45,174 nt of DNA from a virus, in IMG/VR virus record IMGVR_UViG_3300037136_000085, positions 1 through 45,174 of that record; one strand, 5' to 3'. Made by a program: the position numbers and the translations under genes. Below are positions 1-43,216 of the stretch, piece after piece (position 1 is the stretch's first letter; the number at the start of each line of letters is the position of its first letter). Under the pieces are notes generated by a model that saw nothing but the letters and a program-made list of their open reading frames with translations, was not told the origin of the DNA and made no database searches.

Positions 1-70
1 ATGCACAGAAATTACCACACGTTCTTTATCTGCGATTAAACTCCGTAGAGAGCTTCATGGTTTTGAAATA

Positions 71-249
<179 letters not shown>

Positions 250-253
<4 letters not shown>

Positions 254-279
254 CCAGCCCAACACAGGCGCGGAGGTGA
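250..279 (+). other. Linker mini-ORF of 9 codons (MTSPTQARR)
   Basis: The ATG at 250 overlaps the stop of the repeat gene (ATGA). The ORF stops at 277-279, just before the next gene at 284. It carries the GGAGGTGA Shine-Dalgarno-like sequence for that gene. Similar short ORFs with related sequence (CCAACA.AGGCGCGGA) sit between other genes of this operon. Confidence 0.4.
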
Positions 280-283
280 GCGG

Positions 284-475
284 ATGAAAATAATAGTAAA
301 AACTGTTTATGCGGATGTTGACCAAAGTTTTGTGAACTGGTATTGCGACACGCTTAAAAAGCACGACAATTTTCCATCTGATATTGCCGATGATTTAAAA
401 GAAACTGGAAAAGCAACTTTTCAATCTGGTTTTGAAGGTAAAATAGCAACCACTACTTACGAGGTTGTGAAATGA
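284..475 (+). CDS. Small hypothetical protein, 63 aa
   Basis: No family recognised. The start follows GGAGGTGAGCGG, a strong ribosome binding site. The protein is mixed polar, with no membrane segment or motif. Its last residues (GFEGKIATTTYEVVK) are nearly repeated at the end of the 36-aa ORF at 44561, and the underlying DNA is a 69-bp direct repeat (452-520 and 44648-44716). The stop TGA overlaps the ATG of a linker ORF at 472. It is a member of the coupled early operon. Confidence 0.7.
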   Translation: MKIIVKTVYADVDQSFVNWYCDTLKKHDNFPSDIADDLKETGKATFQSGFEGKIATTTYEVVK

Positions 476-9638: not shown

Positions 9639-10565
9639 TTATTGTTTGATGATGTAATTAACGACCACAGCCGGATTTATAATGTTCATAGGTGTACCAC
9701 TTCCCGTAATATCTGAAACACCAGAGGCGATTGTATGGCTATGCGCGCCTGTCGTGTTGGTAAACGTATTTCCAGTAGTGCCGCCTATCGACGAATACAA
9801 ATTTGGATTAGAGCCGTTGACTATGAATCCCTGTCCCACCAATCCAAGTTGCGTCCAAGTGAAATTGAAAAAGTGGGAGTGAGCGCCGTCCGTACTTGTA
9901 CCGTAAGATCCTGGACCATGAGTATGTGCAGCTAATTCTCCTACTACTTGGGTGTGGGTCTCACTTCCCACTTGGGTTCCTAAAGTCCTGGCAGTCAGAT
10001 TGCTACCCGGTCCGTTTCCTCCAGGACCCGCGCCGATTGGCATTTGGGATCTCATATCAGGGACATTAAAAGTGGTTACGTTATCACCAACCCCGTAGGT
10101 AGTGCCAATGACGGCGAATAGATTAGCGTAAGTAGTACGACTATAAGCAGTTCCGTCGCAGATGAACCACCCTGCCGGAGCAGTAGCCCCACCATACATG
10201 GTGATTACTCCTGAGAAAGAAGGCCCAAAACTGTTTGACCCGATCCCCGTTGCTTCAACCTGGTTGCCGACAATGGTCAATGTATTGTTGTCTACATTCA
10301 CATTCAACACGCCCGTTGCGTTTGTTCGAATGAGACCGTTTCCGGCAAGTGTTGCGTTTAATTGCGAAGGCACGATATTGGCTGTAGCAATGAGGTTAGT
10401 ACCATCAAGAGAATTGACCGCATTTACCAGATTGTTAAATTCAGTATTTAGTTCAAGAGCAGTTAAGATCGAACCATCCGTAAAAGTATAAATTCGACTG
10501 ACTTGAGCGGCTTCCACATTCAAGCAAAGAACTGCACAAAGACTAAGTATAATTCGGGTTAGCAT
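9639..10565 (-). CDS. Exported tail-collar-domain fibre protein, 308 aa
   Basis: The C-terminal half holds a phage tail collar domain: GVITMYGGATAPAGWFICDG, then YANLFAVIGTTYG and FNVPDMRSQMPIG, followed by repeated HTHGPG / HSHFF / HSHT histidine motifs that bind metal in short fibres. The N-terminus MLTRIILSLCAVLCLNVEAA is a Sec signal peptide with a cleavage site after about residue 20. The start at 10565 was preferred to the upstream one at 10613 because GGAGG lies 6-7 bases before it; it overlaps the preceding tail gene by 23 bases. A signal peptide on a tail fibre is unusual. Confidence 0.85.
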   Translation of the reverse strand: MLTRIILSLCAVLCLNVEAAQVSRIYTFTDGSILTALELNTEFNNLVNAVNSLDGTNLIATANIVPSQLNATLAGNGLIRTNATGVLNVNVDNNTLTIVGNQVEATGIGSNSFGPSFSGVITMYGGATAPAGWFICDGTAYSRTTYANLFAVIGTTYGVGDNVTTFNVPDMRSQMPIGAGPGGNGPGSNLTARTLGTQVGSETHTQVVGELAAHTHGPGSYGTSTDGAHSHFFNFTWTQLGLVGQGFIVNGSNPNLYSSIGGTTGNTFTNTTGAHSHTIASGVSDITGSGTPMNIINPAVVVNYIIKQ

Positions 10566-12111
10566 CTTCGACCTCCAATATGAATCCGTAAATCTCAATG
10601 TCACTATTTCCACCTGATATTAAATCAACTTGAATACCGTAACCGATGTCATCAATACTAACCGTGGTAGGGACGAATTGTCCAACCCCAAGCACGCTCT
10701 TCCCTAGAACGAAAGTAGTTCCAAGCAAATCTTGTCCTTGAGTTAAATTGATGGGTTTTGATCCGTATTTGGTGCCGTCAATCACCCAACCGACAGTGAA
10801 TTGGGAAGGAACTAAGGTGGCTGCTAGAACGGTAATGCTCTTGAAGCGTTTTTGTTTATCCATCGTGCCCGGATAGAGAACGCCAGTTAGCATTCGAGCC
10901 GTAAAGCCTGCATTTCCTAAATCACTTTGGGTATTCTGGTTAAGAAGAGCGATTGTGCCGTCTTCTCGGCCCGTCATGATGTTGAGTTGGTTATTGAGGT
11001 AAAGAGTGGCAATACTTCTAGCCTCAATGCCAGTCCAGTTAGTCCACGTGCCGTATTCAATATTGTAGACTAAGAGCGTGTCATTGGTTTCCTGACCGCT
11101 TGAAGGAACTGAGATCATATAGCAGTTCACGTTAGGAAAAAAGACTGCCGTGATTTGTTTGAAGATTGAAGGATTGATAAGAGTTGTCCAAAGTTTTTGA
11201 ATATCTCGAGATAAGAAGGTCGATTCAGTCAAACGGCTCGCATTCATTTGACGTAATGAATGCACTCCACGCTCACTAGGAAAAATCACATCGTTTGGAA
11301 CTTGCACAATACTTGCGTTACTTATAGCACCAATCCCGCGACTTACCGGGTAGAGATCAAAAGTAGTCGGATCATTGCCCGTTAAAGTGTAAAGAGATTT
11401 ACGGGTCCAGATGTAAAGCTGTCCCTGAAACGAAGCAATCCCCGTAATGCCTTCAGGGTCACCATCTGCGTCTAGGTCAAGAGATGTCCCGTTATCGGGA
11501 GGAATATTGTCCCAGTTCTCTGGATTAAATTCCGTACTTAAATAAACTCGAAATGGAAAATCATCGTTACCCGCCATGACCATTCGGCCTAAATGGGAAC
11601 AGAGATACTTCCCTACTCCATCGGGGGGAGGATTTGCCGCCCGAGCAGTTGATGAAGTGCCGTCCCATACATTGTATCCGTCTGCCGTAATGGTTGAACA
11701 GAAGTACAAAAATTGATTGAACATCTGATAAGAAGGAACACCATTTGGTGATAAAACAAGCGCTCCGGTTACGTCCACCGCAGGCGAAGAGCGCCCTGGA
11801 ATATTCCAAACTTGAGTACCTTGGTGCAAGAAAATACTATCAATTGGATTTCCGGCTAAAGAGGCCGTGCGCCAGAAGTCTAAGATCCCTCGAATTGGAA
11901 CGCCTGATGCCGGATAACTTGGAGTCGAAGCGTAGCATCCCGTATTGTAAGGGACCTGGCCACCTCGTTTCTTTCTAGAGATGGTGGTGCCCATCAAGAG
12001 ATTGTCGGCAATCACCATTTGGTTCTTAGCCAAAACGATAGGATTTTCTGAGACTAAGCCGCCGCCGATCCCATCAATTCCGAAATAAGAATATCTCCTA
12101 GTTGACTCCAT
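10543..12111 (-). CDS. Tail hub/stabilisation-type protein, 522 aa
   Basis: A soluble beta-rich protein. Recognisable blocks are an N-terminal ENPIVLAKNQMVIADN, a middle IASFQGQLYIWTRKSLYTL and VIFPSERGVHSL, and later NDTLLVYNIEYGTW with LNIMTGREDGTIALLN. Such repeats of 'value at a position' strands are seen in the P22 gp10-like tail needle adaptor/stabilisation family. It follows the adaptor gene directly and precedes the collar fibre, the order expected in short-tailed phages. Confidence 0.7.
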   Translation of the reverse strand: MESTRRYSYFGIDGIGGGLVSENPIVLAKNQMVIADNLLMGTTISRKKRGGQVPYNTGCYASTPSYPASGVPIRGILDFWRTASLAGNPIDSIFLHQGTQVWNIPGRSSPAVDVTGALVLSPNGVPSYQMFNQFLYFCSTITADGYNVWDGTSSTARAANPPPDGVGKYLCSHLGRMVMAGNDDFPFRVYLSTEFNPENWDNIPPDNGTSLDLDADGDPEGITGIASFQGQLYIWTRKSLYTLTGNDPTTFDLYPVSRGIGAISNASIVQVPNDVIFPSERGVHSLRQMNASRLTESTFLSRDIQKLWTTLINPSIFKQITAVFFPNVNCYMISVPSSGQETNDTLLVYNIEYGTWTNWTGIEARSIATLYLNNQLNIMTGREDGTIALLNQNTQSDLGNAGFTARMLTGVLYPGTMDKQKRFKSITVLAATLVPSQFTVGWVIDGTKYGSKPINLTQGQDLLGTTFVLGKSVLGVGQFVPTTVSIDDIGYGIQVDLISGGNSDIEIYGFILEVEDANPNYT

Positions 12112-14344: not shown

Positions 14345-15940
14345 TTATAAGACCTGAAAAATTGACCAATGGTTATAAGCACCACTTCCTGTAGTTGTTC
14401 GTGATGACCCCGTATTTTGAGTTATATAGATCTCAATCTGAGTTCCGCTGGGGAGATACATCAACCCAGATACACTTGAACCTATTGAAACCGTACTCGA
14501 ATAAGTCGCGGTTACGCTCCAGGTATTACCTCGCATGAGTTCACTAAATCCGCTACCCTCATTGATGAATACTTGAGCCCACATGCCCACGACTGGAGAG
14601 CCCGAAGGAATGTCCAGCGAAACAGTAGCGTCGAGTTGATAATATCCGGTCGTAGGAGTTACGTAATATTGACCGCCTGAATTCCATCCAGAGGCAGTAT
14701 CATTGGCAACCGTCCATCCTGTAATTTGTGCACTACTAATTCCGCTCTGTCCACCCCCATTAGTAGCTATGAATTTAGCCGCAGATGCTCCCGATCCGCT
14801 ACTTGCGGCGGTGATCAAGCCTTTGCCGTTCACCGTTATGCTGGCATTCGTAAAAGAACCGACATTAGAATTCACAGTAGCCAGGGTGGTGGCATTCCCA
14901 CTCGATGTTACATCCCCTGTTAAATTGGCATTCGTGGTTACATGTCCAGCAGTCAAAGAAGATGCGGTGCCCGATATATTTGTACCAACCAATGCACTAG
15001 GAGTTCCTAGAGCCGGAGTAATCAATGTTGGTGAAGTATTCATGACAAAAGTTGAACCAGTACCCGTCTGTGAAGCAATGGCTGTAGCATTGCCCGTCGA
15101 AGTAATCGGACCTGTTAGATTTGCATTGGTGGTAACTGTAGCTGCATTTCCTGTCGTATTAGCGGCATTATTTGGTATGTCACCACTCGAAAGAGTTGTT
15201 GCTGCCGTAACTAGTCCTTTGGCATTTACAGTGACTTTAGGAAAAGTTCCAATATTGGAATTGACAGTAGCAAGGGTGTTAACCGATGAACCGGATGGGC
15301 TCGTTACATCACCTGTAAAAGCGGGTAATTGAGTTGAGCCCAGAGATCCAGAGATATCAGTAAAAGCTGGTTGAGCTTGAGTGAATTGTCCACTTGTACC
15401 TAGACCCGTTAAAAACTGGCTTGTAACCAATGTAGTGGAATTAACAGCACCAATCGAGGAAAGAGTTGGGGTCGGGAGATCCGGGCCAATGAGAGCGGAA
15501 GAGGTTAGGTCCCCGTTCACATTTGAATGAATAACGCCAAGACCATAAGCAGTATTTATAAATGGTTGGGTGAAAGTCTTTTGGCCGGTTATAGTTTGAG
15601 CACCGCCAAGATTGACCGCTCCCCCTGATAAAATGGTCCCGATATCAGTATCAATGCATCCTAAATAGGATTGTACGTTAAGAGAGCCGGGACACGCGGC
15701 TGATCCCGGCAAGATCGAAATGGCCGAGGCCGGAAATGCCCCCGTTGTGGTGTTCATGAAATTGGTGAGGCTTGACGCCGTAATGAACATTTGGGCGTCT
15801 ATGAGGTCGTAATTATCCCGAACGGCTGGTCCCCAAGTGGTCGAACCATCTTGAGGCTTGTCGAGATTGTAATGGGTGGTGAAGGTATCACCAAAACTTA
15901 GGCTTGATGTGATTAGACCAAGCCATAAAAGAAATTTCAT
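14345..15940 (-). CDS. Exported tail-fibre protein with C1q-like tip, 531 aa
   Basis: The N-terminal 16-17 residues (MKFLLWLGLITSSLSFG) look like a Sec signal peptide. Next comes a short region seen at the N-terminus of phage fibres (THYNLDKPQDGSTTWG). The central part has repeats of the type TNANLTG.[IV]TS.GNAT and VT.N.KGL[IV]TAA, typical of trimeric beta-helical shafts. The last 130 residues (YYVTPTTGYYQLDATVSL onward) resemble a C1q/TNF-type trimeric head. It lies just behind the capsid gene terminator. It probably binds the host, and the signal peptide implies an export step. Confidence 0.75.
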   Translation of the reverse strand: MKFLLWLGLITSSLSFGDTFTTHYNLDKPQDGSTTWGPAVRDNYDLIDAQMFITASSLTNFMNTTTGAFPASAISILPGSAACPGSLNVQSYLGCIDTDIGTILSGGAVNLGGAQTITGQKTFTQPFINTAYGLGVIHSNVNGDLTSSALIGPDLPTPTLSSIGAVNSTTLVTSQFLTGLGTSGQFTQAQPAFTDISGSLGSTQLPAFTGDVTSPSGSSVNTLATVNSNIGTFPKVTVNAKGLVTAATTLSSGDIPNNAANTTGNAATVTTNANLTGPITSTGNATAIASQTGTGSTFVMNTSPTLITPALGTPSALVGTNISGTASSLTAGHVTTNANLTGDVTSSGNATTLATVNSNVGSFTNASITVNGKGLITAASSGSGASAAKFIATNGGGQSGISSAQITGWTVANDTASGWNSGGQYYVTPTTGYYQLDATVSLDIPSGSPVVGMWAQVFINEGSGFSELMRGNTWSVTATYSSTVSIGSSVSGLMYLPSGTQIEIYITQNTGSSRTTTGSGAYNHWSIFQVL

Positions 15941-19041: not shown

Positions 19042-19428
19042 TTAAATCGCAAGACCGGCTTGGTGGTCGGTCCGCCTTGAGCGCAATGCATCTCTTGAGG
19101 TTTCCATTTTATCGGATTCCTTTTGGGGTTTTGCTACCTTCGACCGCGAGATGTATCCGGCCAAATCCCCTAATGCTTGAATTCTACCACGGTGAATCAA
19201 AATCTGCTTGTCATCCGTTTGACGAGCACTCTCCAGTATTGCGACATTGTGGGCAAGATTTATGATCTCTTCCACCATCGCAATTCCAATATCATTCTCA
19301 AAACCACCGAGGCGCGTAGAGAGATTCTGCATTTCGGTGCAAAGCTTCACGTGATTGAATTCGAGTACCCTCTCATTGGAATGAACTTCAGGAAGAGGGA
19401 TAACTTTCTTTTTACGAAACAGGTCCAT
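19042..19428 (-). CDS. Hypothetical protein between portal and scaffold, 128 aa
   Basis: A helical soluble protein (NHVKLCTEMQNLSTRLGGFENDIG, MVEEIINLAHNVAILESARQ, read as short pieces) with a basic C-terminus. It overlaps the end of the portal gene by 17 bases. No family is recognised; a head-assembly or portal-associated role is inferred from place only. Confidence 0.6.
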   Translation of the reverse strand: MDLFRKKKVIPLPEVHSNERVLEFNHVKLCTEMQNLSTRLGGFENDIGIAMVEEIINLAHNVAILESARQTDDKQILIHRGRIQALGDLAGYISRSKVAKPQKESDKMETSRDALRSRRTDHQAGLAI

Positions 19429-21676
19429 TTACTTCTCCGGGAGGTCTGCCAAGAGTCCCTTGGCCTGGAGGAGCGGGTTGCGCTCCGGGTTGAGTGGGTT
19501 GCGCTCCAGGCATTGGACCTAAGCCTTGTCTTGGGGTTTGCACTCCCGTTACATTAGGATTAGATCCAGCCTGGATGGCTTGCATGAATTGTATGTGCTT
19601 AGCGATCAATCGCTCAAGTGCTGCCACTTGATTAGGAGAGGTTAACATCCCGTAGTGAGGCGACTCTTTGAATCCTTGGTAAATCCGTAGAGCTTCTTGG
19701 TGATTTTCGTTCATCCGAACGGTGTTTTCAATCGGCGGGTCAGTATAATTATCAAGCACGATTCTAAAACATCTCTCACTTGGTGTTATGAAATCGCCCT
19801 GATAAGTCTGAGGAGCGGTGATAAAATTACCCACACGCCTAATCTTATTTTTCATCAGAAAGTTCTTAGCCAGATTATACAAATTATCGGGCGTCACTAC
19901 GCCCGTTTGCGTGAAGGCGGGATTAATCATCATCTGCATGAGCATAGTGGCATCTTGCTTAGCCTGTGTTCGGCTATCGCCCAAAATATCAATATTGATT
20001 TCAAAGTCGTATTGCCCTTTTAAACTATCGCGAGAAACTTCACCGAAGATCGGATCTCCGGTCTCGCCCGTAATCCGGTAGTAAAGCTTCTCGGGCATTC
20101 GCTCTCGAGATAGAGTGAAGAGAGCCTGCAAAAGACGACTCAACGTCCTAGCTAACCTATCGAAATGGATTTCAAGCTGGATATTGGTCTCGCTTGCCAT
20201 ATCGTTAGATCCGCTAGCCGTTCTAAAAACACCAACATGTTGGGGGGCTCGACCTAATTGAATGTCCGAAAGATTGAGCACCTTTTCGGTATAGGCAATT
20301 AATCGGTCTTCTTCTTGGTTTCCAAAGCTTGAGAGATAAGGGATTTGCAGGACACGCACATCGTTGATGGGATCATCGACTGGATTGAATGTACCCGGCT
20401 CCACATGTATTTTATCCGGCTTAAGGCCAGACGATGCGCGATAAAAACCAAGAGGAGTAGAAGCGAGAACTCCGTTATCCATCCTAAGATTATAGACACT
20501 ATTAATTCCTTTCTGGATTGGTGCTAAGACTTCCGCGGTACCCACACCATGAGATCGATCAGGAAACTGAATAAAATTACCAGCGAAAATTGGACGAATG
20601 CCGCTAGGACTAACGCGATACAAATAAGTCCAGCCAAGCACCATGCCGGAAGATTGATGAACCCAGATGACCACTTCTTCGGGCATCTGATCCATTTCGA
20701 ATTCTTCTTGGTGATCGATTGTTTTTTTAATGTAGGCTTTGCCATAATGCTCGATGATCGAGTGCTTACCGTCATAATAGCCGTGGGGGTCGATATACCC
20801 ATCAGTCTCAAATCTTTGGATTTTGATCTGAGAACTCTGCTCGTCCAGATAACTGCCCTTGTGCTTTAGAGCTTCAGCCACTTGATCGTGATCAAATTTC
20901 CCTTCACGCGCTCGGGCTTTTAATTCGTAGTCAGTCATGAAGACTCGATGCTTCACCCAATCAGAAGTCTGGGGATCACCTTGACCCCGAGGAAGGAGGA
21001 TATCTTCCATCAAAGCTCGACCTATATAAGGAGTCTCAACAATCTCTTCTTTTACGACATTTTTCTCACTCAGTTGAGAAGTGACATCTTCCCTACCTGT
21101 CGTATCGTTAGGCGCAAAAACATGGGTTTTGGTGAGTGTAACTTTTGGCTCAACTTCTAGATATTTGTGAGTATCTCGTTGCCAGTATAGTTTTAAGTAT
21201 CCGGTACCTTCAAACACCACATCCCAGACCCACATATCAAAGACATCACGCGTGCCCTTTTTCCCGTTACAATACTGGTCCAAAATATATTGCATGAAAT
21301 CGCGGATATCGGCTTCGCGGTCTTCGAATACTTCTCTACGAGCTTTTACCCCGAAGAAGTAGGGGTCTGAAAAGAGTTGCCAAAGACGCGCGTGAATAGC
21401 TTTACCGTAAAGTAAAGTGACAGGAATATTAAAATTGGAGGAATTTTCCCAAGGACCCATAATATCTTCGGGCCTGAGATTTCTCCAGTTCTGCGTCCAC
21501 CATTCCCGTTGTTGTAAAAAGTCCCCTCGAAACTGATTTGTAGTACGCCAGTCCTGGGCGATCTCACGGCCCAGCGTTTCGTAATCAATCTGTCCCAGAG
21601 GAAGGGTCTTAAATCGAATGGAGATATCTTCGTCAGAAGTGCCAACATTTGCCCCACTTTGGTCTATACCTTCCAT
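19412..21676 (-). CDS. Portal protein (P22 gp1-like), 754 aa
   Basis: Length and layout fit the large portal proteins of P22-like podoviruses: helical N-terminus with WWTQNWRNLRPEDIMGPWENSSNFNIPVT, a beta-rich wing (EEVVIWVHQSSGMVLGWTYLYR), the sequence IFAGNFIQFPDRSHGVGTAEVLAPIQKGINSVYNLRMDN, read as short blocks, which matches the portal core, and a Pro/Gln/Gly-rich tail. It forms the dodecameric entry channel to which the terminase docks. It overlaps the terminase gene by 13 bases. Confidence 0.9.
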   Translation of the reverse strand: MEGIDQSGANVGTSDEDISIRFKTLPLGQIDYETLGREIAQDWRTTNQFRGDFLQQREWWTQNWRNLRPEDIMGPWENSSNFNIPVTLLYGKAIHARLWQLFSDPYFFGVKARREVFEDREADIRDFMQYILDQYCNGKKGTRDVFDMWVWDVVFEGTGYLKLYWQRDTHKYLEVEPKVTLTKTHVFAPNDTTGREDVTSQLSEKNVVKEEIVETPYIGRALMEDILLPRGQGDPQTSDWVKHRVFMTDYELKARAREGKFDHDQVAEALKHKGSYLDEQSSQIKIQRFETDGYIDPHGYYDGKHSIIEHYGKAYIKKTIDHQEEFEMDQMPEEVVIWVHQSSGMVLGWTYLYRVSPSGIRPIFAGNFIQFPDRSHGVGTAEVLAPIQKGINSVYNLRMDNGVLASTPLGFYRASSGLKPDKIHVEPGTFNPVDDPINDVRVLQIPYLSSFGNQEEDRLIAYTEKVLNLSDIQLGRAPQHVGVFRTASGSNDMASETNIQLEIHFDRLARTLSRLLQALFTLSRERMPEKLYYRITGETGDPIFGEVSRDSLKGQYDFEINIDILGDSRTQAKQDATMLMQMMINPAFTQTGVVTPDNLYNLAKNFLMKNKIRRVGNFITAPQTYQGDFITPSERCFRIVLDNYTDPPIENTVRMNENHQEALRIYQGFKESPHYGMLTSPNQVAALERLIAKHIQFMQAIQAGSNPNVTGVQTPRQGLGPMPGAQPTQPGAQPAPPGQGTLGRPPGEVNGPVS

Positions 21677-23680: not shown

Positions 23681-25855
23681 ATGAAATTTTCAATCGTCAT
23701 CCCGACCTATGGCCGCCTTGACCTTGTTACCGCTTGCGTCAAATCAATCAAAAAATACGAACCCAACACCAAGGAATACGAAATAATTGTCGTAGACGAT
23801 TTCAGTACGGTGGAAAACCGAGAAAATATAAAGAAGCTCGCGACAACTTTGGGTTTCAAATTGGTTGGAACTGACCGAAATGTGGGATTCGCCTCTGCGG
23901 TGAACGCCGGAGCTAGGCACTCTCATGGAACGCACATTATTCTTTGCAACAATGATGTATTATTCACTAATCCGATCTTAGAAAAGTTTAAGCAATCCCA
24001 TTTATGCTCTAAAGCCCCGATCATCGGTTGTACCCTTTTCTACCCAAATGGCGCTATTCAGCATGGTGGTGGTGCTTATCAAAACGGAGTTTTCTTTCAC
24101 ACTAACGATCCAAAATCAACTGCCACAAGTCGCTATTGCATCTACGTTACGTTTGCTCTGGTTTCTATAGAACGATATTTCTATAACTGCATCGGCAATC
24201 TTGACGAAAACTTCTTCATGGCTTGTGATGATTCAGAATATTGCATCCGAGCGTGGTCAAATGATCTTAAAGTATTCTATGATGCATCGATCACGGCCAT
24301 TCATGCTGAAGGTGCAACTCGCGGTAGAACCCATGCCGAAAAGAAGAATAACCGAAAATGCCTAGAAGAAGAGAAGAAATCTATTGCAAGATTAACCACC
24401 AAAATGGGGAATATCGTGAGCTTACTTAGAAAAGTCCAAAGCGCCAACATGGGTAATACGCCTGATATTAAAATAGAAATAGGCTCCGGATACAACCCCC
24501 AACCTGGCTATCAGCATATTGACGCGAGACCTGACCTCCCCAGTTTACACCACTGTTTGGACTTCTCAAAAGACGCTTTGCCATATGGTGATGGAGAAGT
24601 GTGTGAGATCCTATCTAATCACTCCATTGAACACATCTCTTACCGCAAACTTCCTTTCGTATTCCAAGAATGGGCTCGAGTATTAAAGCCGGGTGGGAAG
24701 CTCCTACTTCGGACTCCGGATCTTCGTTTCATTTGTGAAACGTATTTGGCTGGTAAAACAACGCCCGAGTGGCCCGATGACGAAAAATACATTCGAGATA
24801 ATTTTGGAAATGTATCCCCAGCCTGGTGGGCCAATATCAAACTATTTGCGGGCCAGGACTATCCCGGAAACTTTCATCAACTCTGCTTTGATTTTGAAAT
24901 GCTGAAAAGTGCTCTCATAAGATACGGATTTGACAAGATCACTAAACTCGATATCAAGCCGGTTTACTCCCCCGGTGAACTTCAAATAGAAGCTTTCAAA
25001 GCAGTTCCTAGACCCACCATTCGTATAAAACGAATGGGGGCTTTGGGCGATGTGATCCTGACCACTCCACTCATTATTCATTTGAGTGCAATGAACGACA
25101 TCCATGTAACAACCGGATGCCCAGAGGTTTTTAAAAACCACCCTGCGGTAAAAACCATAAACACGAATTTTCCTTGTGATCAGTTTATTGATTTAGATTT
25201 GGCTTATGAAAACGATCCAAAGAAACATATTGTGGACGCCTATGCAAAAGCAGCTCAATGCCCAGAATTCAGGTATATGCCGCCCTGGATTTGGGGGGAT
25301 GAACACCCTTTGCCTGATCTTAAAAACTATGTGGTAGTCCATGCGGCTCGCACTTGGGAGAATAGAACCTGGCCTGCCGAATATTGGGACCAAGTTTCTT
25401 ACCATTTAGGGTCGATGGGGTACGCTGTCATTGCGGTAGGCTCGAATAGCGACATGAAAGTGCGAGATGCCACCAACATTAGGGGCATGACAATCCATCA
25501 GCTAAAAACAATCATCAACGGGGCCAAGGCTTTCATCGGGAGTGATTCTGGGATCTTGCATATTGCAGCCACGACAGAAACACCAATTGTTGGGATATTC
25601 ACCTGCGCAAAGGGGGAATACCGGCTCCCCAAGAGAAGCAACGCCGTTGCGGTCAGGACCAATCTCGAATGCTATGGTTGTCTCCATGACGTTACTCCTC
25701 CAGTGACTTATGTGGGTTGTAAAATCGGAGGTAATCCCTGTGTGAGAGAAATTACCCCCGATGCCGTAATTAGCGTTTTTAACGCCTTACTGACAAGTAA
25801 CGGGGCCGAAGGGAAGAGTCTGATCAACGAGCATACCGACGGCTGTGAACCGTGA
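23681..25855 (+). CDS. Tri-domain GT2-methyltransferase-GT9 fusion, 724 aa
   Basis: Residues 1-230 are a GT2 glycosyltransferase (FSIVIPTYGR, IIVVDDFS, HIILCNNDV, DDSEYCIRAW). Residues about 262-440 are a SAM-dependent methyltransferase-like domain (IEIGSGYNPQPGYQHIDARPD as motif I and II, NHSIEHISY, WARVLKPGGKLLLRTPD). Residues about 446-715 are a GT9 heptosyltransferase-like domain (RIKRMGALGDVILTTPL, VVHAARTWENRTW, FIGSDSGILHIAA). Such genes normally act on lipopolysaccharide or glycoproteins. A lone plus-strand gene between two minus-strand blocks, it probably has its own promoter; none is clear. Its 3' end overlaps a minus-strand gene by 69 bases. Confidence 0.9.
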   Translation: MKFSIVIPTYGRLDLVTACVKSIKKYEPNTKEYEIIVVDDFSTVENRENIKKLATTLGFKLVGTDRNVGFASAVNAGARHSHGTHIILCNNDVLFTNPILEKFKQSHLCSKAPIIGCTLFYPNGAIQHGGGAYQNGVFFHTNDPKSTATSRYCIYVTFALVSIERYFYNCIGNLDENFFMACDDSEYCIRAWSNDLKVFYDASITAIHAEGATRGRTHAEKKNNRKCLEEEKKSIARLTTKMGNIVSLLRKVQSANMGNTPDIKIEIGSGYNPQPGYQHIDARPDLPSLHHCLDFSKDALPYGDGEVCEILSNHSIEHISYRKLPFVFQEWARVLKPGGKLLLRTPDLRFICETYLAGKTTPEWPDDEKYIRDNFGNVSPAWWANIKLFAGQDYPGNFHQLCFDFEMLKSALIRYGFDKITKLDIKPVYSPGELQIEAFKAVPRPTIRIKRMGALGDVILTTPLIIHLSAMNDIHVTTGCPEVFKNHPAVKTINTNFPCDQFIDLDLAYENDPKKHIVDAYAKAAQCPEFRYMPPWIWGDEHPLPDLKNYVVVHAARTWENRTWPAEYWDQVSYHLGSMGYAVIAVGSNSDMKVRDATNIRGMTIHQLKTIINGAKAFIGSDSGILHIAATTETPIVGIFTCAKGEYRLPKRSNAVAVRTNLECYGCLHDVTPPVTYVGCKIGGNPCVREITPDAVISVFNALLTSNGAEGKSLINEHTDGCEP

Positions 25856-29899: not shown

Positions 29900-31033
29900 T
29901 TATTCGAGACATGTAAAATCAGCATCGACAGGATTTATCCCGCTTCGCTTGTCTGATTCATGAGCAAGGGTCACTCCACTGCTCACTGATACGCAATACT
30001 TTTCCACAAAAGCCTTGTCAACCTTCTTCTCAAATTGTGCAGGGGACAAAAGAGAAGTCTCAAAGGCTTTAAGCCCAAATTTCTTTTTAGCTTCTTTCTC
30101 GACCTTCTCAGGATTTTCCCATTTTCGGGTAGCGCGTCTTGGCACTAATTTCCAACCAGGAACTATTTCGCCTCGTTTCATAGCTTCAAATGCATGAGCC
30201 CTTAAAGCACCAATCCAGGTCTCAAGACGCTCTACGGCTTCAAGCGTAATACCTAGGCGTTCATTGGAGAGTTCATGGGTAGGCGGTAATTCAACAATAC
30301 CTAACTCCGGCTCAAAATCGATCTGAGCTTGTTTAAGCACGTTTTGTGATATTTCTGGACATATCGATGCTGCTGGGCAGAACTTGCACCAATCGCCTGC
30401 ACTAAGTTTTGGGGCAAGGGCGGTAGCTCTTTGTATTCCACTCTCGAATCTTTCTCTCCACATAATAAGGTCTTCAATGGAGATTCTCCAGGTCTTGAAT
30501 ATTCCTCCGCTATGTGGTGTGCGTGGCTGGACGATAATGAGGTTAACGTGTTTAAAGTTGAAATCGTAGAGATGGGCAATTCCGAGAGCGTAGTAGATGA
30601 GTTGGGGGTTTTCTTCTGGATCAACCGGAATACCAGCACCATACTTAAAATCAATAACGTCCAACTCACCGAACTCTTCAGCGATGGCAACGTCCACAGT
30701 CCCAAAAGTGTCAGGATAAATAAAGCTAAGATCAACTTTTGTTTCCACGAGAAAGTCAGCATTCTTTTTCTTCCTTTGTTCGATGATCTTGAAAGAGTCA
30801 AAGACATGGGACAACATGTCATTGGGATATTTTCCTTTCAGTAAAAAAGATTCCGAATAGGGTCGCTTACTTCGTAGGAACTTCTCTAAACACTCATGGG
30901 CAAGAGTCCCTTCGGCGGCATATGGACTATCGGGCTGTGGTGGCGCTTTCTCAGAGAGCGCAATGGAGCCCGCACAATTTAGCCAACGATACGCACCGCT
31001 GGCAGAAAACTTCGCATGTTTTTTGGATGACAT
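29900..31033 (-). CDS. DUF2800 (Cas4/RecB-like nuclease family), 377 aa
   Basis: The opening KFSASGAYRWLNCAGSIALSEK, then AAEGTLAHECLEKFL, then FGTVDVAIAEEFGELDVIDFKYG provide the PD-(D/E)XK set: His in AHEC, Asp in TVDVA, Asp and Lys in VIDFKYG. Cysteines CKFCPAASICPE can hold an iron-sulphur cluster as in Cas4 and AddB. This family accompanies DUF2815 and polymerase in phage replication blocks, and probably processes DNA ends. Confidence 0.85.
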   Translation of the reverse strand: MSSKKHAKFSASGAYRWLNCAGSIALSEKAPPQPDSPYAAEGTLAHECLEKFLRSKRPYSESFLLKGKYPNDMLSHVFDSFKIIEQRKKKNADFLVETKVDLSFIYPDTFGTVDVAIAEEFGELDVIDFKYGAGIPVDPEENPQLIYYALGIAHLYDFNFKHVNLIIVQPRTPHSGGIFKTWRISIEDLIMWRERFESGIQRATALAPKLSAGDWCKFCPAASICPEISQNVLKQAQIDFEPELGIVELPPTHELSNERLGITLEAVERLETWIGALRAHAFEAMKRGEIVPGWKLVPRRATRKWENPEKVEKEAKKKFGLKAFETSLLSPAQFEKKVDKAFVEKYCVSVSSGVTLAHESDKRSGINPVDADFTCLE

Positions 31034-31042
31034 TCATTACTC

Positions 31043-31210
31043 CTAGAAAAATAAATGACCGATTAATACGCCCCAAGCAAATGAGATAATTGGATACTTA
31101 ATTGTTGCTCTTGAAATGGTGTCTTTTACCCCTCTAGTACGATAAATGTAATAGTCAAACCCCAAAATAACTATTGTCCCGATTGCCATAAAATCTAAAG
31201 TCAGTTTCAC
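31043..31210 (-). CDS. Two-helix small membrane protein, 55 aa
   Basis: The GTG start overlaps the stop of the upstream gene (GTGA at 31207-31210). Two hydrophobic helices (DFMAIGTIVILGFDYYIY and YPIISFAWGVLIGHLFF) are joined by a basic loop (RTRGVKDTISRATIK). A similar helix-loop-helix with PxIxFxxGVLxGHLF is known in small phage membrane proteins; a class II holin is possible. TAG stop. Confidence 0.65.
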   Translation of the reverse strand: MKLTLDFMAIGTIVILGFDYYIYRTRGVKDTISRATIKYPIISFAWGVLIGHLFF

Positions 31211-31599
31211 GAAGGACTCGGACTCGGGCTAGGGCTTGGCATGACAACCGTGCAAGTGCCGTCGCTATTTTCTGTGACTGTACCCGGCTCAGATGGAACC
31301 GAGCTTGGCTTTGCGGCATTTAAGATTGCGCTTTCGCCTAAGAATAATTCATGTGCTTGAGCGCAATTGGTTCCAAGTGCTCCGAAGAACGCACCGGGGC
31401 TGTGTGTTGGGTTTGGATCTTGCCATGCCATTTTAAAGAATATCCCCATTGCCCGAGTGAGTTGAGTGTAAAGGTTTGTAGAGGACGACTGGACGAAGTT
31501 CAACGTCTGCGTCGGATAGTCGCTAGGCGCTGGACTTGGCAGGACGATAATTCCGGCCTGAGCCGTGATCGAAAATAAAAGTAAAATTAAAAGTCTCAT
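31207..31599 (-). CDS. Exported small protein, 130 aa
   Basis: A Sec signal peptide MRLLILLLFSITAQAG with cleavage probable after AQA. The mature part has LTRAMGIFFKMAW, FGALGTNCAQAHELFLGES and a Ser-Pro repeat tail (PSPSPSPSPS). Two cysteines. No family is recognised. It is coupled to the membrane protein downstream and follows a fibre-like gene, so the three form an exported module inserted in the replication block. Confidence 0.7.
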   Translation of the reverse strand: MRLLILLLFSITAQAGIIVLPSPAPSDYPTQTLNFVQSSSTNLYTQLTRAMGIFFKMAWQDPNPTHSPGAFFGALGTNCAQAHELFLGESAILNAAKPSSVPSEPGTVTENSDGTCTVVMPSPSPSPSPS

Positions 31600-31609
31600 A
31601 AATTTCTCC

Positions 31610-32845
31610 TTATTGAATCCTTATAAAAGATCCGGTTGTATTTATCGCTTGGTAAGCAATTGCAGTGTTTTGAGCAAGAGTCGGTGACGCGCCTACAGTC
31701 ACCGTACCCGTTACGGTCGTAGTGGTTACAGTTCTATTTGAAACATATCTCAATGTCTGCCCTACTCTTGTCGTGCTAGGGAGAGCAATGGTCAAGGCCG
31801 TGATCAAAGTTGTTGAAGTGTCATAAATGGTTTCATCATTTTTAGAAGTGTTGAACGTAGCCGTTGCAGTCGTGTTGCTCGTCATCGTGACAGAGGAGTT
31901 CACAATGGGCGATGTGACTAGACCGTAGTTTGAAAGAGCAGTAGCCACATCTCCGCTTTGTTGAGGAACGGGCGTTGTATTGAAAAATCCAAGACCCTGA
32001 ACGCCTGAAAGATAAGACGTGGAGACAATGGGATTACCTACACCATCAAAAAGACCTACGCCGTTATTACCGGCTCCTGCAATTTGTCCAGTTCCACCGG
32101 AAAATGTGATAGAACGTGATCCACTTATATTCGAATCATTCAAATTAACAACGCCTGCATTTGCAAAAGTCCAATTACCCAGAGCGTCCCACGTTACTGT
32201 GTTTGATGATCCACCAACATAGCCCGAACCGTCTGAATTAAAGCTAATAACGGGGGTACCACCGACCGTATTAGAAATTACAAAAAACTTATCTGAACTA
32301 TTTGGGTTTGTCTGAACAAATTCAATGTACGTTTGACCAGCACTAGATGCACTAACGCCAAGATTGGCTACACCGCTATAGCCATTCAACCATAAATTTT
32401 CTGATTGGATTGTTCCCGCAATATCAGCAAGTACATCTGCGTTAAAAGACCAACCAGCAAATTGCGCATTTCCAGCACTGTCATCCAAAATATTTCCAGA
32501 ACCCGTTACAAGGTCTGACCCGTTACTAGAGTAAATAGTTGGACCAGTTGGTATTGCCCCGAAATATAGCCGACCACCTATGGAGACATTTCCGGTTCCG
32601 TTTGTGATCAAATCGCCTGGCACGGTGAGCGTAGAGCCGTCCCAAGATCCGAATCCGCCAAATGCGCCAGAGTTATTGTATTGAACCGTCCCTGAAGATC
32701 CCCCAGGAGATCCACCTCCACCAGTAGACAAACACGCATTAAGGGGGAGATTAAAAATCCCCGAAGCACATCCCGGACCCCAAGTAACTGGGGGACCAGC
32801 TACAGCAGTCGAACAAAAAAGCAATAGTGCAAATATCTTATTCAT
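31610..32845 (-). CDS. Exported tail-fibre-like protein, 411 aa
   Basis: Signal peptide MNKIFALLLFCSTAVAG. Then a glycine-rich segment (GGGGSPGGSSGTVQYNNSGAFGG), the last part being a motif frequent in phage fibres. The middle holds strand repeats such as WSFNADVLADIAG, NTVTWDALGNWTFANAG, SITFSGGTGQIAGAGN. The C-terminus has TTTVTGTVTVGASPT and ends FIRIQ, as in trimeric fibre tips. It sits far from the tail genes, inside the replication block, and could be a second, exported receptor-binding or decoy fibre. Confidence 0.7.
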   Translation of the reverse strand: MNKIFALLLFCSTAVAGPPVTWGPGCASGIFNLPLNACLSTGGGGSPGGSSGTVQYNNSGAFGGFGSWDGSTLTVPGDLITNGTGNVSIGGRLYFGAIPTGPTIYSSNGSDLVTGSGNILDDSAGNAQFAGWSFNADVLADIAGTIQSENLWLNGYSGVANLGVSASSAGQTYIEFVQTNPNSSDKFFVISNTVGGTPVISFNSDGSGYVGGSSNTVTWDALGNWTFANAGVVNLNDSNISGSRSITFSGGTGQIAGAGNNGVGLFDGVGNPIVSTSYLSGVQGLGFFNTTPVPQQSGDVATALSNYGLVTSPIVNSSVTMTSNTTATATFNTSKNDETIYDTSTTLITALTIALPSTTRVGQTLRYVSNRTVTTTTVTGTVTVGASPTLAQNTAIAYQAINTTGSFIRIQ

Positions 32846-32852
32846 ACGCCCC

Positions 32853-33428
32853 TTATTGGTAGAAATTAATTGTCAAGAATCCGCTAGTAGCATTGGCCGT
32901 AACCGCTCTGATCGAAATCTTAGTCCCGGTAGCAATCAAAGCTGGAATGATTGAAACATTTCCGCCTTGGGGAATATAAATCAAATGTGTGGGACTCGCT
33001 CCGATTCCCAACTCCATCACTTGACCTGAAGTATCTGAGACATCGAAAGAATTAATAACTCCACTTGTAGAAGCCACAAGTTGAGTCCAAGTACTCGTGG
33101 TTACATTAGTAGAAGCATATGCATTATAGACCGAAGCAATGACAGCCTTACCGCCCGTATTAACAGACGCCGATCCACTCCCGCCGGAACCAAGTAAAGT
33201 TACCGGAAAAGGGTTTGTAGAACTGACATCGATATCGGTTCCGTCAACACCAAAGGCGATCTTACGCTTCACGTAATTAGTGACAGGAGTTCCAGCCGCT
33301 CCTGTTTGAATTTGATCGACCGGAACATTGTCCCCGATATCGTTCGAGTGAGGATTGGCTGGTGCTGCGTAAGCCGGTTCGCAGGCCGAAACAAAGGCCA
33401 GAGTCAAAATGAGAATTATATTTTTCAT
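32853..33428 (-). CDS. Exported/lipidated fibre-associated protein, 191 aa
   Basis: N-terminus MKNIILILTLAFVSACEPAYA: VSAC is a good lipobox, and AYA-AP is an alternative signal peptidase I site. The mature part NPFPVTLLGSGGSGSASVNTGG and a jelly-roll-like C-terminus (STWTQLVASTSGVINSFDVS, GQVMELGIG) resemble baseplate or fibre-tip proteins. It precedes the 411-aa fibre-like gene by 7 bases, so the two are probably co-translated. Lipidation would tie the complex to a membrane. Confidence 0.65.
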   Translation of the reverse strand: MKNIILILTLAFVSACEPAYAAPANPHSNDIGDNVPVDQIQTGAAGTPVTNYVKRKIAFGVDGTDIDVSSTNPFPVTLLGSGGSGSASVNTGGKAVIASVYNAYASTNVTTSTWTQLVASTSGVINSFDVSDTSGQVMELGIGASPTHLIYIPQGGNVSIIPALIATGTKISIRAVTANATSGFLTINFYQ

Positions 33429-33461: not shown

Positions 33462-33497
33462 TCCCCCAAGGATAACCCATTTTTAACCCTTGGGGGA
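33462..33497. other. Strong hairpin in the replication operon
   Basis: Perfect 10-bp arms TCCCCCAAGG (33462-33471) and CCTTGGGGGA (33488-33497) with a 16-base loop, in the gap between the 117-aa gene and the exported module. There is no clear T-run on either strand, so it may be an mRNA processing or attenuation element marking the border of the insert. Confidence 0.7.
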
Positions 33498-33514: not shown

Positions 33515-33868
33515 TCACTTTGTCAGAATAGCCAATACCTTGGGGTAATCTTCAGACTTCAAATCCTTCACTGATTTCACTTTGAATTTCTCAAGAACGG
33601 CCTTAGCCTTTTCTCGCGAATTCTTTTCCGCATAATCGCGGAATGCGTCAATGATATCCGACTGAGTCAGTTCTTTTGGCTTCTCGGTCTTTTCTTCAAA
33701 GCCCAAATCTTCTTCAGGTTCAGGAGCCTTTTCAGCCTTCGGAGCTTTCTTAGGTGCAGCCGCTTGAGCGTGGGACGCGGCATCAGTCAACGCGCCGGTT
33801 GGTTTGGCTACGGCCTTGGCTACTGCGTCTGCAAGTAACCCATCGAGTTCAATAATGAGCCTAATCAT
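33515..33868 (-). CDS. Replication-block protein with C-terminal helical domain, 117 aa
   Basis: A short N-terminal strand (MIRLIIELDGLLADAVAKA), then a disordered Ala/Pro/Lys/Glu linker (AAPKKAPKAEKAPEPEEDLG), then a compact helical domain (SDIIDAFRDYAEKNSREKAKAVLEKF and VKSVKDLKSEDYPKVLAIL, read as short pieces). Comparable proteins sit beside SSB and helicase genes in other phages; the C-terminal helices look like a protein- or DNA-binding module. It lies 10 bases after the helicase gene. Confidence 0.65.
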   Translation of the reverse strand: MIRLIIELDGLLADAVAKAVAKPTGALTDAASHAQAAAPKKAPKAEKAPEPEEDLGFEEKTEKPKELTQSDIIDAFRDYAEKNSREKAKAVLEKFKVKSVKDLKSEDYPKVLAILTK

Positions 33869-33878
33869 AAAATACCTT

Positions 33879-35237
33879 TCATACTAGATTGATTGATTTT
33901 CTCTTCCGTAAGATTGTTTCCAAGACCGTCCTGTCTATGGAATTCTTAAACACCAAATACGAAACCAAAACGTCTCGGTTCTGACCGATACGGTGAGCGC
34001 GATCCGAAGCCTGTTCGTTATTGCCCGGCACCCAATCGAACTCTACAAACACTACTCGGGCTGATCTTGTCAATGTGAAACCCACGCCCGCAGCTTGAAT
34101 ATTGCCAATGAAAAGTTTTGAACCACCTTCCATCTGAAAACCTTTTACCAAATCGTTTCTCTTGTGAGTCGGAGTTTCTCCGGTGATCACAACCGGGTTG
34201 TATTCCGAAAGAGCCCAACTCAATTTGGCAATTACATCCCGGTGGATGGCAAATACTAAGAGGGCCTCGTTTGAATTTTCTAGAATATCTTTTAAGAACT
34301 CGATTGCGAACTTGCATTTGGCTTTCCCTAGTTCCTTTCGATAGGTAGCGGTATGCGGACTATCCAAAGTATGTTTCATGAGATCTTCCGGCGAATACTC
34401 TTTCAGAATGGATTTATCCAAAGCTCCGACAGCCTTTGGCATCTCATCTGACAAAATAATCATCTCTTCCATTTTATCTGGCAATTCCTCTAGCACATCA
34501 CGTTTACGCATCCTAAGCATGAAGTTGGATTTAACTTTCAAACTTAATTCGCTCACATTACTTGCGCCCGTGAAATCCCAACCCCATTGATTTTGGAAAC
34601 CAGCACAATATCTAAGCCCATACTGAAACCGATTCTTGAAATCTATCGTCTCTGGAGCAGCCACAGATAGAACAGGAAAAAGCTCAATAGGTCGGTTAGG
34701 CATGGGTGTGCCTGACATAAATACGCAGCGAGAAGCGCAAGGAAACAGAATATTGAAAAGAGATTTTGTCCTCTTTGCCGTTTCGTTTTTAAATCGGTGC
34801 GCTTCATCTACGATCAATAATACAGGATCTTTACTTTTTGGTTTAAATTTATCAAGCCTATTATCAGGAATTACGGTGAGCCTATGGAAATATTCTTCAT
34901 TCCACTTAAGCATTTCGCTATAGGTATTCTCAACTAAAAACGGGGGGCAAACGTACCAAACATCAAGATGAGCCAAATTTCTGGCGATTAAGGCCGCAAT
35001 GATTGTTTTCCCAAGTCCTGGATCTAGAGCCAAGTAGGAACGATTGCGCTCGAGTGCGAAGCGAATTGCTTCAAACTGAAATAGTTTCGGATGAAGACCT
35101 TTAGGATACCGAATGGCACCAAGCCAGGGTTCCTTAGTGATTGTAGTCTTGCTTGGTTTAATTCTTGCCGACTTATCAGATTGGTCTTTTAGCTTGGTGC
35201 TCATTCGGAGATCTTCAGGGTACTCGAGAGTTGTCAT
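33879..35237 (-). CDS. SNF2-like (SF2) helicase, 452 aa
   Basis: Motif I DPGLGKT at 72-78, motif II DEAH at 144-147, motif III SGTP at 175-178. The second RecA domain has LLVFAIHRDV, KLFIGNIQAAGVGFTLT (motif V) and QASDRAHRIGQ (motif VI). This is the SNF2/SMARCAL1-like arrangement without accessory domains. Phage members are thought to remodel or unwind DNA in replication or recombination. The start at 35237 follows the Gln-rich frame by 4 bases and lacks a clear ribosome site, so translation may depend on coupling. Confidence 0.9.
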   Translation of the reverse strand: MTTLEYPEDLRMSTKLKDQSDKSARIKPSKTTITKEPWLGAIRYPKGLHPKLFQFEAIRFALERNRSYLALDPGLGKTIIAALIARNLAHLDVWYVCPPFLVENTYSEMLKWNEEYFHRLTVIPDNRLDKFKPKSKDPVLLIVDEAHRFKNETAKRTKSLFNILFPCASRCVFMSGTPMPNRPIELFPVLSVAAPETIDFKNRFQYGLRYCAGFQNQWGWDFTGASNVSELSLKVKSNFMLRMRKRDVLEELPDKMEEMIILSDEMPKAVGALDKSILKEYSPEDLMKHTLDSPHTATYRKELGKAKCKFAIEFLKDILENSNEALLVFAIHRDVIAKLSWALSEYNPVVITGETPTHKRNDLVKGFQMEGGSKLFIGNIQAAGVGFTLTRSARVVFVEFDWVPGNNEQASDRAHRIGQNRDVLVSYLVFKNSIDRTVLETILRKRKSINLV

Positions 35238-41872: not shown

Positions 41873-42429
41873 ATCGAAAACACTTAACACCATCCGAGTA
41901 TGAGTTACTGAAACAGGCATTGAAACAAGACGATTCAATGCCCGCACGAATACTTGAACTCATTGTCTACACTGGAATGCGGCAATCTGAAGCCTTGGCA
42001 CTAACCCATAATTCCTTAGACGTTCAAGCTCGATGCTTGAAAGTCAAAGCGCTGAAGGATTCGGAGTCCCGTCTAGTCCCCATGAGTCTAGATCTCATTG
42101 AGCGAGTAAAGCCATTATTCAATATACTCCTCGCGCGTAAAGCAAGGGCTGGAGATTTGATATCAAACTCGCTCAATCCCGAGCACCAAGCGCGGGATTT
42201 GAGACGAATTTGGAGCAAGCTTTCAGTGGCAATCTTTGGTGGTTATTATGGCGTAAGTCTTCATGGGCTAAGGCATTCTTGGGCTTTACGGATATTTGAA
42301 GTAACCAAGGGGAATTTGCTATTGACACAAAAACTAATGGGTCATAAGAACATGAATAGTACCGCAAAGTATTTGCAATATTTTTCAACACTCAATTGTC
42401 GAGACGAGGTTTTAAAAGCAAATGAATAA
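41869..42429 (+). CDS. Minimal tyrosine recombinase/integrase, 186 aa
   Basis: It contains the catalytic domain only: Arg38 (YTGMRQSEAL), Lys60 or 63, His132 and Arg135 (HGLRHSW), His159 (LMGHKN) and Tyr168 (STAKYLQY). The N-terminal SAM-like core-binding and arm-binding domains of phage integrases are missing, giving a size nearer to XerC/D-like resolvase cores. It could integrate the phage, resolve replication multimers or rearrange the repeats nearby. No att site was found beside it. The ATG overlaps the preceding stop. Confidence 0.88.
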   Translation: MNRKHLTPSEYELLKQALKQDDSMPARILELIVYTGMRQSEALALTHNSLDVQARCLKVKALKDSESRLVPMSLDLIERVKPLFNILLARKARAGDLISNSLNPEHQARDLRRIWSKLSVAIFGGYYGVSLHGLRHSWALRIFEVTKGNLLLTQKLMGHKNMNSTAKYLQYFSTLNCRDEVLKANE

Positions 42430-43216
42430 ATCTAATATTATGAAATCATATCAACAAACCATTAGTAAAAAGGATTTTGTAGCCGAATTGAAATTGCATC
42501 AAAAGGCCGATGATTTTGTAAAGGGGTCATACTGGAGAACCGATGGTAAAGGTTGCGCGGTTGGATGTAGTATCCAAAGTATTTCAGTTAAAAAGGGATT
42601 GAATTTAAAGCATTCTGACCATTCGGTCTACCCTATACATTTAGGCATTCCAGAATGGTTAGCCGGACTTGAAGACTGTCTTTTTGAAAATCTCCCGCTT
42701 TCCCGATCTAAAAAATGGCCTGTAGAATTTGCCCAAGCTATTCCTATCGGAGTTGATCTAGAGAAAATAAAAGGTCCCTTTATGGTCATAATTCTAGAGA
42801 ACACTTTAAAGAATTTTGATCATAAGGAATATCCTGATGTAAAAAAGGCGGTGAAGGGTTCAATTGCCCTTTGGAAACGTAAGGATATTGGTTCTAAAGC
42901 GTGGTCGGCAGCGGAGTCGGCGGCGTACTCGGCAGCGGAGTCGGCGGCGTACTCGGCGGCGTACTCGGCAGCGGAGTCGGCGGCGTACTCGGCAGCGAGG
43001 TCGGCAGCGGAGTCGGCGGCGTACTCGGCGGCGTACTCGGCAGCGGAGTCGGCAGCGGAGTCGGCAGCGGAGTCGGCGGCGTACTCGGCAGCGGAGTCGG
43101 CGGCGTACTCGGCAGCGGAGTCGGCAGCGGAGTCGGCAGCATGGTCGGCAGCGAGGTCGGCAGCGTGGATATATTTTGCAGATGAACTTTTGAAATTACT
43201 AAAAAAGGCAGTATGA
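42422..43216 (+). CDS. Phage repeat protein with (SAA-X)22 tract, 264 aa
   Basis: The N-terminal 155 residues form a domain I recall as widespread in phage and plasmid hypothetical proteins ([55 protein letters not shown]). Then 22 tetrapeptides Ser-Ala-Ala-X, with X = Glu, Tyr, Arg or Trp, and a short amphipathic end ([12 protein letters not shown]). The repeat is probably a long helix. Function is not established. An alternative Met at 42440 (MKSYQQ) exists. Start and stop overlap neighbours. Encoded directly behind the recombinase. Confidence 0.8.
42905..43168 (+). repeat. 12-bp minisatellite, 22 units encoding SAA-X
   Basis: Two main DNA words: TCGGCGGCGTAC (SAAY) and TCGGCAGCGGAG (SAAE), plus rare TCGGCAGCGAGG (SAAR) and Trp versions (TCGGCAGCATGG and TCGGCAGCGTGG). 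The synonymous GCG or GCA codon before the variable residue is tied to the residue, so whole units and not single bases have been shuffled. Confidence 0.95.

Follow-up and report, generated by a model that had tools for sequence, protein, structure and literature searches.

A three-gene candidate exported-fibre cassette shared between otherwise unrelated viruses

The general view is that tailed phages have their tail fibres built and attached within the cytoplasm, and the part of the open-access literature that we covered contains no report of exported tail fibres. The surface of Bdellovibrio bacteriovorus carries signal-peptide fibres with diversified tips, and the mosaic adhesive trimer (MAT) superfamily of this bacterium has a common domain of ~130 aa after the signal peptide (PMC10769870). 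In phage lambda, the gene for the outer-membrane protein Lom stands between the tail genes (PMC12309495). Here we describe three adjacent genes for a fibre and two smaller proteins, all with predicted signal peptides, in a viral sequence of 45,174 bases (the single IMG/VR record IMGVR_UViG_3300037136_000085), the whole of which is referred to below as the window. Judged by its genes, which include an SU10-type portal (19412-21676; PF23899, E 1.8e-18), a terminase, a gpT-like capsid protein and ejection-type proteins, the window is a short-tailed phage.

Layout of the cassette and its predicted signal peptides

The cassette lies on the minus strand, with a DUF2800/PD-(D/E)XK gene (29900-31033; PF10926, E 1.4e-78) on one flank and a 117-aa gene followed by an SNF2-type helicase (33515-35237) on the other. 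Gene 1 (32853-33428) encodes a 191-aa protein whose C-terminal beta-sandwich domain, recognised from homologues and a structure model, is common to virion-type proteins. Gene 2 (31610-32845) encodes a 411-aa fibre with homologues in the relatives G007, G008, L066 and L070, and gene 3 (31207-31599) a 130-aa protein that has two cysteines and ends in a Pro-Ser repeat. The next ORF (31043-31210, minus strand) starts with GTG and encodes a 55-aa protein with two predicted membrane helices. Genes 1 and 2 are separated by 7 nt and genes 2 and 3 by 10 nt, and gene 3 overlaps the 55-aa gene by 4 nt (GTGA). This agrees with the original prediction, which placed four tightly spaced ORFs between the DUF2800 gene and the helicase block.

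The same prediction took a strong hairpin as one border of the unit. The hairpin exists upstream of the cassette (33462-33497, minus strand; 81-nt fold of -26.9 kcal/mol, z -2.96, 0/200 shuffles), but it lacks a U-run and ranks behind five stronger ones in the window. It was missing from our terminator-scan list because the loop limit of 8 excludes it, and Rfam gave no match for it.

None of the three cassette genes had a significant match in PHROG or Pfam. Searches of 50,697 phage records with 25 kb of the window (megablast) and with the 191-aa and 411-aa proteins (tblastn) gave no match, and PDB sequence matches for the cassette proteins, mostly antibody chains, were at chance level and were discarded. 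Elsewhere in the window, a 724-aa protein with glycosyltransferase family 2, methyltransferase and heptosyltransferase-type (GT9) domains is encoded on the opposite strand between the terminase and the replication genes (23681-25855, plus strand), and positions 1701-2498 are also glycosyltransferase-like. Long alternating two-residue runs (RPRPRP and similar) occur in non-structural regions of the window (26-364) and of other contigs (L057:3483-3902 and L066:2134-2613).

Signal peptides were called with a home-made rule-based test rather than a trained predictor. The N-termini of all three cassette proteins pass it; in total 4/62 picked window ORFs do so, and each of these is a fibre-type or cassette gene (531, 411, 191 and 130 aa). 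As controls, 4/287 ORFs from 36 unrelated viral loci, each at least 100 aa long, and 1/90 spurious window ORFs passed the rule. When the N-termini of the three proteins are shuffled, they pass at rates of 1-14%, the upper figure being that of the 411-aa protein; the prediction for this fibre is thus weak alone and is strengthened by its homologues. Every related cassette fibre examined (L009, G008, L066, L002 and L070) passes the test, whereas 34/36 other fibre ORFs with the same repeat have no signal peptide and 2/36 pass. The N-termini show a basic start, a hydrophobic core and AxA-like sites (AVA-G and AQA-G in the window; VSA-Q and AFA-Q in G008), and the 191-aa protein has a possible lipobox (VSAC, Cys16). 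As a separate observation, many different proteins of the L070 contig (L105 and L106) start with MNKAQKLI-like peptides, which may be a common targeting peptide, for instance a prohead-targeting sequence.

The window carries two further signal-peptide fibres on the minus strand, both outside the cassette and in the structural region: a 531-aa fibre adjoining the major capsid gene (14345-15940) and a 312-aa fibre with a tail Collar domain (9639-10577; PF07484, E 1.3e-23), which passes the rule from an internal ATG. We recognised no fibre gene without a signal peptide in the window. The suggestion that the cassette proteins are exported is thus in line with the rule for the 191-, 411- and 130-aa products, but these two fibres had been missed, and the remark that such proteins stand far from the tail genes holds for the cassette only.

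The 411-aa fibre is composed of a predicted signal peptide, a short N-terminal C-x11-C cap (Cys26 and Cys38), the fibre body and a C-terminal tip of ~126 aa (residues 286-411; 31610-31987, minus strand). Only the cap, of ~25 residues, separates the signal peptide from the repeats. The cysteine pair is conserved and placed after the predicted cleavage site; the 531-aa fibre has a C-x11-C pair too, at 83-95.

These features bear on the proposal that the 411-aa protein is an ordinary virion fibre assembled in the cytoplasm, whose hydrophobic N-terminus is a retained docking or membrane-contact segment rather than a working signal peptide. The signal peptides here are rule-based predictions and the fibre has homology to virion-type fibres lacking them, both of which suit this proposal. 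Nevertheless, the combination of basic start, hydrophobic core and AxA-like sites, its occurrence in three adjacent genes including those for small non-fibre proteins, and the conserved cysteine pair beyond the predicted site all argue against it, and we regard it as unlikely.

Homologous cassettes in other viruses

A first scan with the 191-aa protein identified a locus where signal-peptide proteins of 126 and 628 aa stand together ahead of a prohead protease; later scans identified G007, G008, L066, L070 and others. G008, a myovirus record, has homologues of all three cassette genes in the same order, as does its near-identical sister L066. Between the window and G008, gene 1 is 42% identical over 89 aa, the fibre 37% identical in its N-terminal part and 82% in the 126-aa tip, and gene 3 33% identical (E 1e-7). 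The G008 cassette spans both contig ends, and we take this genome to be circularly permuted. The fibre cap is common to the window and L070 (47% over 38 aa, E 8e-8) and is also present in L066.

Looser versions occur in other phages, with differing genome contexts. G007 carries an analogous small-fibre-small set in which only the fibre is clearly homologous (43%); its first gene codes for a small signal-peptide protein of another kind, and its third is only loosely similar to gene 3. Homologues of gene 1 were identified in G008, L066, G001, G003, G004, G005, L061, L063 and L070. In G003, L061 and L063 a fibre is preceded by a protein that has the gene-1 domain at its end, both without signal peptides, and L005 and L006 have the domain without the cassette fibre. 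Signal-peptide fibres are also present on two other viral contigs (L042:4531-7902 and L031:5878-7329), the latter with a similar two-cysteine motif at its N-terminus.

The cassette of G008 and L066 neighbours early-type genes (RecT, metallophosphoesterase). The homologous cassette of G007 lies between neck and tail genes, that of G001 precedes the prohead protease, and that of G302 neighbours terminase/portal-type genes; in these three the pair or the fibre is located in a structural cluster, unlike in the window or G008.

At the DNA level, the window matches the relatives compared only inside fibre-type genes (the cassette, 531-aa and collar fibres). At the protein level it shares a few further genes, among them one at 42422-43216 with G008 (E 1e-43) and small ones with G007. 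The former (plus strand) encodes a long SAAE/SAAY repeat, and its N-terminal part is 45% identical to the G008 protein (L057:2051-2752). The 531-aa fibre shares a fibre segment with G008 (39%).

The loose likeness of the third gene in G007 and the gene-1 domain without the fibre in L005 and L006 are what would be expected if the three genes were unrelated neighbours without a joint function. This is very improbable, given that G008 and L066 retain homologues of all three genes in the same order while having almost nothing else in common with the window. On these sequence comparisons, the three genes are a transplantable cassette, putatively for exported fibres, passed between otherwise unrelated viruses. 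The comparison with related phages proposed alongside the original prediction thus indicates a module that travels as a block into differing contexts. Its extent differs from the four genes first suggested: no homologue of the 55-aa protein, which gave a single weak tblastn match, follows the third gene in the G008 or G007 cassettes, and the conserved module is therefore the three genes.

The tip itself is exchangeable. Besides the close match between the window and G008 tips, the distal part of the fibre is replaced between L066 and G008, with flanking DNA 95-99% identical on both sides. A structure model of the tip was poor (pLDDT 46), too poor for a structure search. The C-terminal ~95 residues of gene 1 gave a confident beta-sandwich model (block pLDDT 82-93 over residues 111-191). 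Its best structure matches were Bacillus Ena pilins, a haloarchaeal virus turret, phage cement, and tail and tail-fibre proteins, with Z ~6-8 (best 8.2), a level that may reflect only a common arrangement.

Virion part or surface fibre

Several signal-peptide fibres of these phages resemble virion proteins. PHROG tail families were assigned to the 312-aa fibre of the window and to signal-peptide fibres of G007, L042 and L070. Just after baseplate-type genes, G008 encodes a fibre in which a signal peptide is followed by an N-domain that forms the very N-terminus of gp67 of phage phi1422, annotated as a tail fibre and lacking a signal peptide, and of a prophage fibre in G085 (HMM E 0.0012; best of 1000 shuffles 0.4). 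G007 has a similar arrangement, recognised by eye only. The L042 fibre has a signal peptide ahead of a tailspike-type domain that starts near the Met in Rhodoferax P26218 and Pseudomonas PAE2. The G008 and L042 cases suggest, at the level of sequence, that virion-type fibres gained signal peptides. We also considered the tailspikes of Shewanella X14 and Vibrio 1.211.A as signal-peptide carriers and rejected both, as their translations show none. No virion-docking N-domain was recognised in the 411-aa cassette fibre, and the docking argument rests on the other signal-peptide fibres.

Based on the signal-peptide-like N-termini, conserved gene order, tip exchange, varied contexts, virion-type homology and similar fibres in a cultured Bdellovibrio phage, we favour, with a probability of roughly 45%, the reading that the cassette encodes receptor-binding tail fibres that are exported, mature outside the cytoplasm and are joined to virions late. 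The products of the three genes would be exported by Sec and their signal peptides cleaved, the cap cysteines would form a disulfide in the periplasm, where the fibre would also trimerise, and the fibre would join the virion at or after lysis as its receptor-binding part.

Close behind in probability is the reading that the exported fibre and its partners stay on the infected cell, where they would block the phage receptor as a superinfection-exclusion shield or add a MAT-like prey-binding fibre. Signal peptides are predicted on all three genes, with the possible lipobox in gene 1, and would suit such a role, as would the non-structural neighbours of the cassette in the window and G008 and a moron-like variation of location among phages; the Bdellovibrio surface fibres and lambda Lom described above are precedents. 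The placement varies and, for the window and G008, is not in a tail operon; this counts against virion use in that it also fits an accessory gene. However, homologues of genes 1 and 2 are located in structural clusters of several phages, and the structural region of the window has signal-peptide fibres of its own, one with the tail Collar domain. Further, blastp of the window fibre against the only MAT-like N-terminus in our set (L092; E limit 0.1) and against S74 fibre segments gave no match, and its profile had none in 290 Bdellovibrionota genomes at 1e-6.

Superinfection exclusion or host-surface modification had originally been preferred over virion assembly. The structural-cluster homologues, the tail-family assignments and the signal peptide before a tail-fibre N-domain in G008 speak against this preference, as does the tip swap between sister phages, which is as in receptor-binding tips. 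Since most replication and structural genes share one strand, the position of the cassette says little about timing, and alone it does not show early expression.

Bdellovibrio links and comparison with known systems

The viruses with the cassette probably infect predatory Bdellovibrio-like bacteria. The G008 protease is 42% identical to that of Bdellovibrio phage phi1422 over 97% of its length, its only other phage match being to an Acetobacter phage (38% coverage at 25%); its alignment found no relative in a scan of genome contigs. In phi1422, gp68 and gp75 pass the signal-peptide rule, and fibre genes without signal peptides, gp67 and gp73, are also present, a point against the virion reading. 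A pattern scan for Bdellovibrio 16S led to named Bdellovibrio genomes and to a phi1422-like prophage in a Bdellovibrionota genome (G085; L090:7594-10504), where an ordinary fibre is followed by a 603-aa signal-peptide fibre. For the window, a Bdellovibrionota host is suggested by the tip and one gene shared with G008; window proteins had no match among those of phi1422 at E 1e-4. The window portal was discarded as host evidence, as its one match in the 290 genomes was weak (26%) and the fibre on that contig has no signal peptide. Tentatively, we propose more broadly that tailed phages of predatory Bdellovibrionota may use Sec-exported receptor-binding fibres with periplasmic disulfides, dress their virions outside the cytoplasm and trade the cassettes between unrelated phages.

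Phage phi1422, which is related to the cassette-bearing G008, offers the closest likeness in culture: its gp68 and gp75, annotated as hypothetical, are fibre-like with signal-peptide-like N-termini, although gp68 stands after the tail-fibre gene gp67 rather than in a three-gene cassette. A term search of the phi1422 genome paper gave no hit for gp68, and nothing is said of fibre signal peptides in the passages covered. This cultured phage makes the question of exported fibres directly testable.

The cassette fibre resembles ordinary Caudoviricetes tail fibres in being repeat-rich, with an N-terminal cap and a modular C-terminal tip swapped between close relatives, and differs in its predicted signal peptide, which they lack. 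Signal peptides on fibre genes of several phages, including a cultured Bdellovibrio phage, would point to a different assembly route or to phage-made surface fibres on predators. Superinfection-exclusion proteins are exported or membrane-anchored, which the signal peptides predicted on all three genes match. Lambda Lom likewise has a signal peptide and is encoded among tail genes, but is an outer-membrane beta-barrel, whereas the cassette comprises fibres and a beta-sandwich protein. With the MAT proteins the window fibre shares a signal peptide, an exchangeable C-terminal tip and kinship to phage fibres, and it has a short two-cysteine cap in place of their beta-rich domain. The window fibre has no Pfam match to S74, and MAT members without S74 exist. 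An exported phage fibre of this kind would bear on the origin of Bdellovibrio's own phage-like surface fibres.
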